Position numbers and translations under genes: made by a program. 64,000 nt of DNA from Argopecten irradians (Eukaryota > Mollusca > Bivalvia > Pectinida > Pectinidae): contig NC_091138.1 in the NCBI RefSeq assembly GCF_041381155.1, forward strand, positions 17,547,255 through 17,611,254. The letters are read 5' to 3'. Position 1 is the first letter of the stretch; each line of letters begins with the position of its first letter. Under the pieces are notes generated by a model, which was given only the letters and a program-made list of their open reading frames with translations, searched no databases and was not told the origin of the DNA. Positions 2,501 through 38,800 of the stretch are shown in pieces.

Positions 2501-2640
2501 TTGATATTACAAGTGGTTGTATTCTGTACATGCAAGACAGCAAGCGATGAGAATTGGTGGTCCGCTTATTAGAATATATATAAATTGATATTACATGTAT
2601 TTGTATCTTGTAGATACAAGACACAACAAGCGATGAGAAT
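2501..2640 (+). pseudogene. Two partial duplicate copies of the adaptor exon 2 acceptor and exon start
   Basis: Two tandem copies (2501-2584 and from 2585) of the segment that also occurs at the real exon 2 (about 5143-5206). Each has the intron end 'ttgatattaca', an acceptor-like stretch and the exon start 'gcgatgagaattggtgg'. The second copy keeps an apparently functional acceptor (TAG at 2611-2613), followed by sequence reading [14 protein letters not shown] in the exon frame, against [14 protein letters not shown] in the real exon; it then hits a stop inside the array. These copies show that the 36 bp array grew from a duplication of this splice junction. Confidence 0.85.
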
Positions 2641-5143
2641 TGGTGGTCCGCTGTGTGTCCTTATTGGTATTGATATTGGTGGTCCGCTGTGTGTCCTTAA
2701 TGGTATTGATATTGGTGGTCCCCTGTGTGTCCGTATTCATGTTGATATTGGTGGTCCGCTGTGTGTCCTTATTGGTGTTGATATTGGTGGTCCTCTGTGT
2801 GTCCGTATTCGTATTGATATTGGTGGTCCGCTGTGTGTCCTTATTGGTTTTGATATTGGTGGTCCGTTGTGTGTCCTTATTGGTATTGATATTGGTGATC
2901 CGCTGTGTGTCCTTATTGGTATTGATATTGGTGGTCCGTTGTGTGTCCTTATTGGTTTTGATATTGGTGGTCCGTTGTGTGTCCTTATTGGTATTGATAT
3001 TGGTGATCCGCTGTGTGTCCTTATTGGTATTGATATTGGTGGTCCGTTGTGTGTCCTTATTGGTATTGATATTGGTGGTCCGCTGTGTGTCCTTATTGGT
3101 TTTGATATTGGTGGTCCGTTGTGTGTCCTTATTGGTATTGAGGATCCGCTGTGTGTCCTTATTGGTATTGACATTGATGGTCTGCTGTGTGTCCTTATTG
3201 GTATTGATATTGGTGATCCGCTGTGTGTCCTTATTGGTATTGATATTGGTGGTCCGTTGTGTGTCCTTATTGGTTTTGACATGGTGATCCGCTGTGTGTC
3301 CTTATTGGTATTGATATTGGTGATCCGCTGTGTGTCCTTATTGGTTTTGATATTGGTGGTCCGCTGTGTGTCCTTATTGGTATTGATATTGGTGATCCGC
3401 TGTGTGTCCTTATTGGTATTGATATTGATGGTCTGCTGTGTGTCCTTATTGGTATTGATATTGGTGGTCCGCTGTGTGTCCTTATTGGTATTGATATTGG
3501 TGGTCTGCTGTGTGTCCTTATTGGTATTGATATTGGTGGTCCGCTGTGTGTCCTTATTGGTATTGATATTGATGGTCTGCTGTGTGTCCTTATTGGTATT
3601 GATATTGGTGATCCGCTGTGTGTCCTTATTGGTATTGATATTGGTGATCCGCTGTGTGTCCTTATTGGTATTGATATTGGTGGTCCACTGTGTGTCCTTA
3701 TTGGTATTGATATTGATGGTCTGCTGTGTGTCCTTATTGGTATTGATATTGGTGATCCGCTGTGTGTCCTTATTGGTATTGATATTGGTGGTCCGCTGTG
3801 TGTCCTTATTGGTATTGATATTGGTGGTCCGATGTGTGTCCTTATTGGTATTGATATTGGTGATCCGCTGTGTGTCCTTATTGGTATTGATATTGGTGGT
3901 CCGCTGTGTGTCCTTATTGGTATTGATATTGGTGGTCCGCTGTGTGTCCTTATTGGTATTGATATTGGTGGTCCCCTGTGTGTCCGTATTCATGTTGATA
4001 TTGGTGGTCCGCTGTGTGTCCTTATTGGTATTGATATTGGTGGTCCAATGTGTGTCCTTATTGGTATTGATATTGATGGTCCGCCGTGTGTCCTTATTGG
4101 TATTGATATTGGTGATCCACTGTGTGTCCTTATTGGTATTGATATTGGTGGTCCGATGTGTGTCCTTATTGGTATGGATATTTGTGGTCTGCTGTGTGAT
4201 CTTATTGGTTTTGATATTGGTGAACAGCTGTGTGTCCTAATTGGTATGGATATTGGTGGTCCGCTGTGTGTCCTTATTGGTATTGATATTGGTGGTCTGC
4301 TGTGTGTCCTTATTGGTATTGATATTGGTGGTCCGCTGTGTGTCCTTATTGGTATTGATATTGGTGGTCCACTGTGTGTCCTTATTGGTATTGATATTGG
4401 TGGTCCAATGTGTGTTCTTATTGGTATTGATATTGGTGGTCCGCTGTGTGTCCTTATTGGTATTGATATTGGTGGTCCGCTGTGCGTCCTTATTGGTATT
4501 GATATTGGTGGTCCGCTGTGTGTCCTTATTGGTATTGATATTGGTGGTCCGCTGTGCGTCCTTATTGGTATTGATATTGGTGGTCCACTGTGTGTCCTTA
4601 TTGGTATTGATATTGGTGGTCCAATGTGTGTTCTTATTGGTATTGATATTGGTGGTCCGCTGTGTGTCCTTATTGGTATTGATATTGGTGGTCCGCTGTG
4701 CGTCCTTATTGGTATTGATATTGGTGGTCCGCTGTGTGTCCTTATTGGTATTGATATTGGTGGTCCACTGTGTGTCCTTATTGGTTTTGACATGGTGATC
4801 CGCTGTGTGTCCTTATTGGTATTGATATTGGTGGTCCGCTGTGTGTCCTTATTGGTATTGATATTGGTGGTCCGTTGTGTGTCCTTATTGGTATTGATAT
4901 TGGTGGTCCGTTGTGTGTCCTTATTGGTATTGATATTGGTGGTCCACTGTGTGTCCTTATTGGTATTGATATTGGTGGTCCGCTGTGTGTCCTTATTGGT
5001 ATTGATATTGGTGGTCTGCTGTGTGTCCTTATTGGTTTTGACATGGTGATCCGCTGTGTGTCCTTATTGGTATTGATATTGGTGGTCCACTGTTTGTCCT
5101 TATTGGTATTGATATTGGTTGTCCGCTGTGTGTCCTTATTGGT
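2640..5143. repeat. 36 bp minisatellite, about 70 units, at adaptor exon 2 acceptor
   Basis: Near-perfect tandem array. The unit starts 'attggtggtccgctgtgtgt' and continues 'ccttattggtattgat'. Variants (ggtgatccg, ggtctgctg, ggttttgat) recur in blocks, so there is some higher-order structure, and 'ttttgacatggtgatccgc' shifts the register near 3280, 4790 and 5040. The unit is a multiple of three, so long frames stay open on both strands; they are products of the period, not genes. The unit begins with the exon 2 text GAATTGGTGG and ends with TTGATATT from the intron end, so it is a shortened form of the duplicated splice junction at its edges. Confidence 0.97.
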
Positions 5144-35800: not shown

Positions 35801-38800
35801 ATGACAGTTCCTGGAAATATATCTCTTCATCATCTGAAGATAGATGTAGATCTTCTTCTAGTGTGTTATCGACTTGTAACTGTATATATTTTGATATAGC
35901 TCTGTATACATTTGTCTATTCAAAAATAATCTATAGTTCATTATGTCATTAATATTACCGCAATTCTTTACTTTAGCGTCACTGTTGGTATACCAAAATT
36001 GTCCTGATGACGACTGCCTAGCGGCCGAAACATGTAGACAATTTGCTCCTCTAAATAACAAAATCAACTGCAATGGATGTTGAGTATCCTTTTATTCTTT
36101 AATTATTGCAAACCTTTGTAATCTACATTTAATAACAAAGGCGAAAATACTCTTATCAAACCAGGGGAAGGGTTCACTTCCTTATCATACAATCCCCCAA
36201 CAGCAATTATCTAATGAATTCACCTATCATTGTGATGTCATGTATTGATGCTTAGCTTTATGTTAGGTATTGAATATGATGGAACAAAATAGCCTACCTA
36301 CATGTACCGTATTCGACCCAATAAGCGCCCAGGGCGATTAAAAAATTGAAAAAGTGCTAATAAGACGAAATTATTGCAAATTTATACAGTTTCTAGTCTT
36401 TCCTTATGCCTGGGCAATTGAAACGAAGGCCTCAAAAAATGGGGAGGGGCGCTTATAGGGACATGGGCGCTTATTGGGTCGAATACGGTATTTAGAGATT
36501 TTTTTACTTTCAATTTAAAGTGCATAATTTATTTAGAAATGTGAAGACAGAATTCTCAGTAAGAGGTTATTATTTGATGTATAAATATTACATTGTAATA
36601 TTTTATATACAATGGGATTGGGCAACTTATATGAAGCTGTCTCCTTAGTGGTTTATGAGACTCATCTTAAAGTTCCATATGAAATGAAAACATCTATAAG
36701 TATTAGACCACTAAATATATATACAATGTATATACATTTGTACTTAATTGTATCTGTTGAACACTTGACACTCACCCTTCCACATGGAGCCAAATGGAAT
36801 TCTTCCTACAGACGTCCTGTAATCTGTCTACATTATCAACATGACCTGTAAGTGGTGTTCCTAAAACACAGCGAAATGAAAATAACATCAGATCCCTTTA
36901 TATTGATCTTCTATTTCCCTGTCATATGGCTTTTAAAGTTAACCATACTTTTTCACCAGAATTAGTATTTTGCCAGAAGCATAATATATGAAAAGTTTTG
37001 AATAAACCACAGATATTATTCATGAGTAACGAAATTGACTTAATTATCATAATATATCCAATTATGGATCATTCTTTATTGCCATTGGGCACTTATCAAC
37101 AACAGCTTTACTTATCTGCTATGATTTGGTGCATGGCATGCAGTAACACTAAGGATTTTCTTTTCTTTTTTCACAATTGTGGTATATACTAAACCAGAGT
37201 TAGTCATGAAGTATTCTTAATTTGTCTGATAATTTGTAGAACAAACCTGCGTAGGCTACCAGAAGGGTGGGAGTTTTAGCTGCTGCTATATCATCCTGTA
37301 TGAGTTTCTCCAGCATCGCTATATCCTGGTCAAACAAAAAATACATTCTGGTTACAAAATAACCCTGATAGCAATGGCAACAACAAACAAAACAAATATA
37401 TCAAAGAAATAAAAAAAAATTCATGCATCCAATTTAAAAAATTGATATTCAGGTATCTTAATGCATATTTTATGGTAACTATTATAATCTGCTTCATTAC
37501 AAGAAATGATCAAGGTGTTTTTAGGTTATTCCTTGCCAAAGTGTGGACAACGAATATAAATATTTTTATGTCAGTCGATACTAGCAGATAAACATTAAGA
37601 GGAAGCTGAACTCAAACCAGCGCTTTCTGTCAGATTTGAACTCAAACCAGCGCTTTCTGTCAGATTTACAACAGAATACCTGACAGAAAGATTACGCACA
37701 TTGCCAACCTATATTGTTTACCTGCTCCAATTCACTCACAACAGATCTTATTTACAATCAAAAACACCAGTCAAAAGTGATAGCCAATCATAACAGCGTA
37801 AAACTTGCTAAAAACACAAATGATCAGTATTAAATTCTAGTATGTATCCACCATTTTGATATAAATTCAACTACATATATTAATGTTTTAAAGCAGCAAT
37901 GTTAAGAGAATTTTAAAGCAGCAATGTTAAGAGAATGTTACTGACCATTTTATGACTTGGTTCAGCTCCAGATTCACATGGCACAGTGCTTATACTTGAC
38001 ATTGGTAGTCCTAACTGTAAAAAAAATAGTTCATATCATTAAGTTAATTAAATTATATAATCAGTTTCAATAAGAGAAAATTTTATAATTTGAAGATCAA
38101 TAAATACTGTCATTATAATAAAACCCCAGCACCAAAGTATTGAAGAATTCCATGGGCTATTACATCTATAAATTACAATAAAAGCAGTTTGTACCCTCAT
38201 TATTTTTCTATTATTTTACAATATTTAAACACATAAATAGTGATACACACTGCTAAAAAAACACTTACAAATAATGTAAATAAATTATACAAGGGCAGAC
38301 AACTCACTAGTAAACAAGGGAGATAATCAGTCTACAGACGATGCTTTACCTGTGAACACAGACTTACCTGCAGACAGAGATAGGCACTGAGATGAGGACT
38401 AGCTGCAGCACTAATATAAATGACTGGAGGTCGTGAGTACAGGGCTTCAAATCCTTCTGCAGCATATTTAGGGTACTTTTGATAAAGAGCAAGGCGGCAG
38501 ATCTTCACCAGGCCATCACGCTCATCCTCACAGAACACAGCCGAAGCATCCATAAACCTATAGATTTAGCAAAGAGGCATCCATAAACTTATAGATTTAG
38601 CAAAGAGGCATCCATAAACCTATAGATTTAGCAAATAGACAGAATAACCACTTTTTGTATTGCCAGTGATAAGTATATGATGTGTTTAGTTCTTTGTACT
38701 GTAATTGTAGATATGATGTTTCTCAATGTTTTTGTAACTTTTTTAGCTATTAATATCATGTTTCTCAATTTTTTTTTATTTTATAAATTTAAGTTTAAAA

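Follow-up and report, generated by a model that had tools for sequence, protein, structure and literature searches.

Minisatellite-like repeats that span exon-intron boundaries, named mirages, have been described in amphioxus for Adh3 and the globin genes BflGb6 and BflGb9 (PMC3087553). Mirages occur at 5′ and 3′ boundaries, their unit length is gene-specific, and AG/GT signals are present in many, not all, of the copies (PMC3087553, PMC3902484); troponin C has been added to the group and repeats of PGBD5 have been likened to it (PMC3902484). Here we describe arrays of this type in the scallop Argopecten irradians, in a stretch of 64,000 nucleotides (contig NC_091138.1, positions 17,547,255 to 17,611,254; the window, in what follows) that holds an adaptor gene and PDXDC1, and in myosin and kinesin genes elsewhere in the genome. 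An earlier note on the window had reported seven tandem arrays at splice junctions and knew of no named phenomenon that fits; the mirages of amphioxus match them in their sequence features. The pattern is real, already named and recurrent in the sampled genes. It is also new for molluscs as far as our literature search reaches: no report of mirages in molluscs was found in a literature judged by titles, which does not establish their absence from print.

Both genes of the window were reconstructed exon by exon, GT-AG sites and a consistent phase being required, and this gave exons 2–7 of the adaptor gene on the + strand, 24 exons of PDXDC1 on the - strand, and 57 junctions in total. Comparison of the ±45 bp around each junction with the whole window by blastn returned additional copies for 7 of the 57, exactly those named in the earlier note, and all extra copies are confined to the intron of the junction concerned and share its strand. 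The periods given there agree with those of Tandem Repeats Finder (TRF), namely 36, 50, 62, ~52, 43, 50 and 31 bp. Five of the seven junctions (10478, 17874, 29970, 32924 and 38558) fall within TRF arrays, and the earlier description has to be amended for the other two arrays. At adaptor exon 2, the 36-bp unit carries no acceptor; two diverged, acceptor-bearing copies of ~84 bp stand at the far end of the array (2491-2652), with the true acceptor (5173/5174) 2.5 kb further downstream, and the copy at 2585-2646 matches the true acceptor region over 62 bp with 93.5% identity. At PDXDC1 exon 23, the array stands 1.9 kb from its donor, split off by an insert of 1.83 kb (24601-26430) that is probably a mobile element.

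The inclusion of adjacent exon bases, also part of the earlier description, is clear at exon 15, with 34 bases, and is reduced to just 1 base in the unit of the linker-exon donor. The last adaptor intron has two arrays with unrelated units, one at each end. Judged from the reading phase, the used splice site is presumably the exon-proximal one, which would be the first unit in donor arrays and the last, in transcript order, in acceptor arrays; the earlier statement, which puts the true site in the first unit, would then hold for donors and be reversed for acceptors. Across both gene spans, TRF (period of at least 15, score of at least 50) finds 16 arrays: five anchored on a junction, the two of exons 2 and 23, and nine unanchored ones that the earlier note had passed over.

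The same pattern was found in other genes of the assembly (846 Mb, 1508 contigs), in line with the earlier idea of a repeated process. A striated-muscle-type myosin exon of this genome encodes 107 residues, all of which (107/107) agree with the PDB chain 1dfk_A from bay scallop, as would fit a scallop and probably Argopecten or a near relative. Same-genome exon matches were at least 82 for the myosin head and at least 130 for kinesin, among the best candidates only, and 24 regions (175.6 kb) were selected by protein match, not by repeats; the list of myosin regions was fixed before any repeat inspection, and kinesin regions were chosen as compact multi-exon loci. Splice-site scores served to assign junctions to the ends of matched exons, missing exons being recovered via tblastn and a home-made profile. 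The resulting set has 262 automatic junctions and 5 placed by eye, some of the latter with approximate positions within the array. These regions contain 15 further anchored arrays, 10 at automatic junctions and 5 at by-eye ones, among them one of 54 bp x12 at a myosin donor, with 39 exon bases included (region L048), and acceptor arrays of 60 bp x43 (L051), 31 bp x12.5 (L054) and 88 bp x7.3 (L061). In L053, one myosin-head exon has unrelated arrays on both sides. Arrays to which no exon was assignable were counted as unanchored (L053 4368, L049 5451, L048 417 and 4503, L040 6120 and 6667, L046 8738, L062 1955), and exons wholly within arrays, as well as the exonic array L059 605-656, were removed before counting.

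The array units appear to belong each to its own locus. None of the seven window units matches any of 62 other sampled sequences of the same genome, nor does the unit of the L048 junction array match another sampled sequence (0/1), in a comparison that covered 63 sequences, 361 kb of the 846-Mb genome; this agrees with the earlier view of independent, locus-born arrays. A dispersed satellite or transposon-borne repeat is not supported, these junction units being found at no second locus among the 63 sampled sequences. In contrast, the unanchored 155-bp tandem family of the window recurs at L059 4755-4908. Eighteen arrays were tabulated, 11 at donors and 7 at acceptors; the exon share of their unit ranges from 0.02 to 0.78 (mean 0.40), and the breakpoints have no fixed offset. 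Only 4 of the 18 periods are divisible by three, which gives no sign of coding use, and a coding variable number tandem repeat, tested on this basis, was unsupported. Identity to the anchor unit drops with distance in the arrays of PDXDC1 exon 19 (rho -0.65) and of the L053 acceptor (rho -0.81), and no clear trend was found in the other nine arrays with enough copies.

In the comparison with mirages, TRF shows a boundary-spanning unit in five of the seven arrays of the window and blastn shows one in the exon-23 array; outside the window 14 of the 15 arrays have such a unit, whereas the 36-bp unit of exon 2 does not span the boundary. As in amphioxus, donors and acceptors are both affected, and the length and sequence of the unit differ between genes. 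On the other hand, the host is a mollusc and not a cephalochordate, up to about 43 copies occur, and the arrays, known from genomic sequence alone, were counted over a genome sample and not reported from single genes. The human variable internal tandem repeats are minisatellites of ~30 bp, which may form novel introns at exon-intron boundaries (PMC2812944); they change exons or create introns by cryptic sites, while the scallop arrays seem to leave the transcript together with an intron that already exists.

The frequency of anchoring was evaluated with a seed null, in which a single founding unit, positioned at random outside exons, gives rise to each array. Under this null, 6.16 of the 75 off-window arrays would be expected at a junction, and 15 are anchored there (P=9e-4). 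Among arrays with 2.5 or more copies, 14 of 39 are anchored against 3.65 expected (P=5e-6), or in 9 against 3.52 with automatic junctions only (P=0.006); for arrays below 2.5 copies the count is 1 of 36 against 2.5. Raising the number of junctions by a factor of 1.5 gives P=0.023 for all arrays and P=2e-4 for those with at least 2.5 copies. The Fisher contrast by copy number, in the first 22 regions, is 13/37 versus 1/34 (P=7e-4), and 8/37 versus 1/34 with automatic junctions only (P=0.03). The window alone, which is where the pattern was first noticed, has 5 anchored arrays against 1.9 expected (P=0.029), and 5 of 11 against 1.6 among arrays of at least 2.5 copies (P=0.01). The array L040 5156-5399 was omitted from the 75-array seed-null and coverage counts and included in the count of 57 arrays by distance from a junction that is given below. 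GC content as the cause of the excess is unsupported, the predicted relative rate being 0.91-1.03.

Several results weigh against a preference for junctions. With automatic junctions only, the whole set of arrays gives 10 anchored against 5.98 expected, a weak result (P=0.07); the 2.5-copy split was one of three thresholds tried and was not preset; and the five junctions placed by eye beside arrays introduce a bias favourable to the mirage reading. One of the 15 arrays, that of L046, reaches its acceptor with just 1 bp and includes zero exon bases. Against shifted intron positions, the comparison by which the earlier note wanted its claim to be judged, no excess was obtained, either outside the window (15/228 junctions with copies versus 21-27 of 218-227) or within it (6/57 versus 5-13 of 57); the hits include some tandem or paralogous exons, which are not arrays, and the test weights long arrays by their length. 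In terms of coverage, arrays lie over 14/248 junctions (5.6%), a figure that includes the 5 by-eye ones, versus 13.4% of non-exonic sequence. The excess is null-dependent, being present for expanded arrays under the seed null and absent under random intron positions. We prefer the seed null, since an array lengthens by inserting sequence and is unable to take the place of an exon, and the conclusion on enrichment hinges on this choice.

We propose, with good confidence, that the arrays are mirage-type minisatellites, that is, chance tandem duplications over junctions which are spliced out and preferentially expand or persist. By chance, a short duplication in tandem, of about 20-90 bp, would straddle an exon-intron junction, leaving the exon-proximal splice site intact and in use; it would be tolerated because this site works and the additional copies are removed with the intron. 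Slippage or unequal exchange would then multiply the duplication, into the intron only. The data back this proposal with locus-specific units, scattered breakpoints, the involvement of donors as well as acceptors, further cases in other genes, and, under the seed null, an excess in expanded arrays that two-copy duplications do not show. The reading phase of the rebuilt exons is consistent with sole use of the exon-proximal site, the engine would be slippage or exchange at the DNA level, and the excess would arise during expansion or persistence, not at the first duplication. In a neutral version of the proposal, deletions that take the array plus the exon edge would be purged, so that junction arrays would persist; in the alternative version, the junction sequence would be truly unstable.

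A broader claim, which we put forward tentatively and would not rely on, is that junctions are preferred sites of minisatellite expansion: duplications would occur anywhere, and junction-bearing ones would lengthen several times more often through splicing- or chromatin-linked instability common to lancelets and scallops. Equally doubtful, though worth keeping in view, are mutational hotspots at junctions, in which splicing-coupled transcription, R-loops, nucleosome edges or exon methylation would cause breakage or slippage; the replication, repair or R-loop process suggested in the earlier note may likewise play a part. That donors and acceptors are both hit (11 + 7 of 18), that the excess is clearest in junction-spanning arrays (10/57 arrays stand 2-60 bp from a junction, about 6.5 being expected) and that GC content does not produce it would suit a hotspot, but the breakpoints keep no fixed offset, and two-copy duplications, which represent the first step, are not enriched, so that a hotspot would need to act at expansion. 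Chance combined with attention, in which intronic minisatellites are abundant and the reader chose the exon-touching ones, is unlikely; it agrees with the nine unanchored arrays in the same gene spans, with the coverage and shifted-position tests and with the automatic-junction test on all arrays, and it is opposed by the expanded arrays, which exceed expectation also with automatic junctions only and come from regions picked by protein match.

Selection maintaining redundant splice sites as splicing insurance, one of the explanations offered in the earlier note, is very improbable. In 7 of 16 arrays all copies share the same core splice dinucleotide, and these include the 42-copy acceptor array of L051 (core 1.000, unit mean 0.965), but on average over the 16 arrays (L044 among them mapped wrongly) the core scores 0.02 lower than the unit mean, which is no sign of better conservation, and values of 0.72 and 0.77 occur for cores in L053 and L051. 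This test has little power because the arrays are homogeneous. In addition, periods break the frame in 14 of the 18 arrays, so inner sites would not rescue, and the 36-bp unit of exon 2 is without any acceptor. Intron gain through tandem duplication is the subject of the AGGT model. Tandem genomic duplications in genes that touch splice sites have been linked to such gain (PMC4974935), and mirages have been proposed as a source of new introns (PMC3087553). That the scallop arrays are intermediates of this process, in which AG|GT segments are duplicated in tandem, is scarcely to be expected: several units do contain AG|GT, but no intron has both ends from one unit, six introns are arrayed at one end only, and the two arrays of the last adaptor intron are unrelated.

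Mirages, so far a matter of single lancelet genes, are found here at about 6% of the sampled junctions (14/248, 5 by eye), which suggests that they recur in two or more animal lineages that are only distantly related, and repeat expansion may be favoured at splice sites. The longer persistence or expansion of junction-spanning arrays may come from protection of the exon edge against deletion or from local instability. The arrays constitute a natural test of how the splicing machinery selects one among many near-identical sites, and the instability of exon edges becomes a testable question. For gene annotation they call for caution, as true splice sites are adjoined by copies of themselves.

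The coordinates of the exons, arrays and other repeats are collected in Table 1.

Table 1. Arrays, adjoining exons and other repeats of the window, and the two arrays of region L053
Feature	Position	Strand	Basis and remarks
Two diverged ~84-bp copies (x1.9), exon-2 acceptor and first ~33 exon bases	2491..2652	+	TRF, blastn
36-bp x70 array just upstream of exon-2 acceptor	2639..5151	+	TRF, sequence reading
Adaptor exon 2	5174..5283	+	gene model; acceptor 5173/5174
Unanchored array, 69 bp	5522-8352		TRF
Adaptor linker exon	10434..10478	+	gene model; donor 10478/10479
50-bp x20.6 donor array, unit with 1 exon base	10478..11525	+	TRF
Unanchored array, 160 bp	12391-13551		TRF
Unanchored array, 155 bp	14459-15163		TRF
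62-bp x3.5 acceptor array, unit with ~15 exon bases	17673..17889	+	TRF
Adaptor last exon (SH3)	17875..18048	+	gene model; Pfam SH3_1
~52-bp displaced array of PDXDC1 exon-23 donor	24357..24591	-	TRF; blastn 58 bp, 93% to donor region
Insert between exon-23 array and exon	24601..26430	.	blastn: 348-bp inverted partial copy 41341-41688, 93%
PDXDC1 exon 23	26462..26616	-	gene model; donor 26462/26461
Unanchored arrays	27836-27919; 28543-28574; 33435-33489		TRF
PDXDC1 exon 19	29846..29970	-	gene model; acceptor 29971/29970
43-bp x15.9 acceptor array, exon 19, 7 exon bases at array end	29964..30646	-	TRF
50-bp x15.2 donor array, exon 15, 34 exon bases at array end	32201..32957	-	TRF
PDXDC1 exon 15	32924..33024	-	gene model; donor 32924/32923
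Unanchored arrays	37607-37667; 39897-39936		TRF
Unanchored array, 25 bp x2.2	37882-37940		TRF; begins 6 bp into intron at PDXDC1 exon-7 donor, site excluded
PDXDC1 exon 6	38368..38557	-	gene model; acceptor 38558/38557
31-bp x2.9 acceptor array, exon 6, 12 exon bases at array end	38546..38635	-	TRF
L053 acceptor array, 89 bp x8.6	3120-3884 (L053)		transcript orientation
L053 donor array, 34/68 bp	3950-4206 (L053)		transcript orientation

Pfam searches identified SH2 and SH3_1 in the adaptor product, and Pyridoxal_deC and PDXDC1-like_cen in PDXDC1, for which exons 1-16 only were submitted. In PDXDC1 exon 18 (30846-30958), a frame shift of one base after KLKG gives a more protein-like reading, possibly a 1-bp assembly error or a true variant. 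The inverted 348-bp copy of the exon-23 insert falls in PDXDC1 intron 1.

In the other genes, a tandem duplication of 118 bp, a length not divisible by three, lies inside a myosin-head exon at L040 5156-5399 (transcript orientation), and among the 3-kb loci L009-L038, which stand outside the counts, L034 1001-1167 resembles another acceptor case. The motif GTAAGT-N16-GTAAGT occurs 2034 times genome-wide on both strands against 711 for a reversed control, with some occurrences within arrays; the surplus, to which sequence composition may contribute, hints at donor-bearing repeats. Finally, the region 59300-63200 of the window, on the - strand, resembles by eye a retrotransposon with reverse transcriptase.

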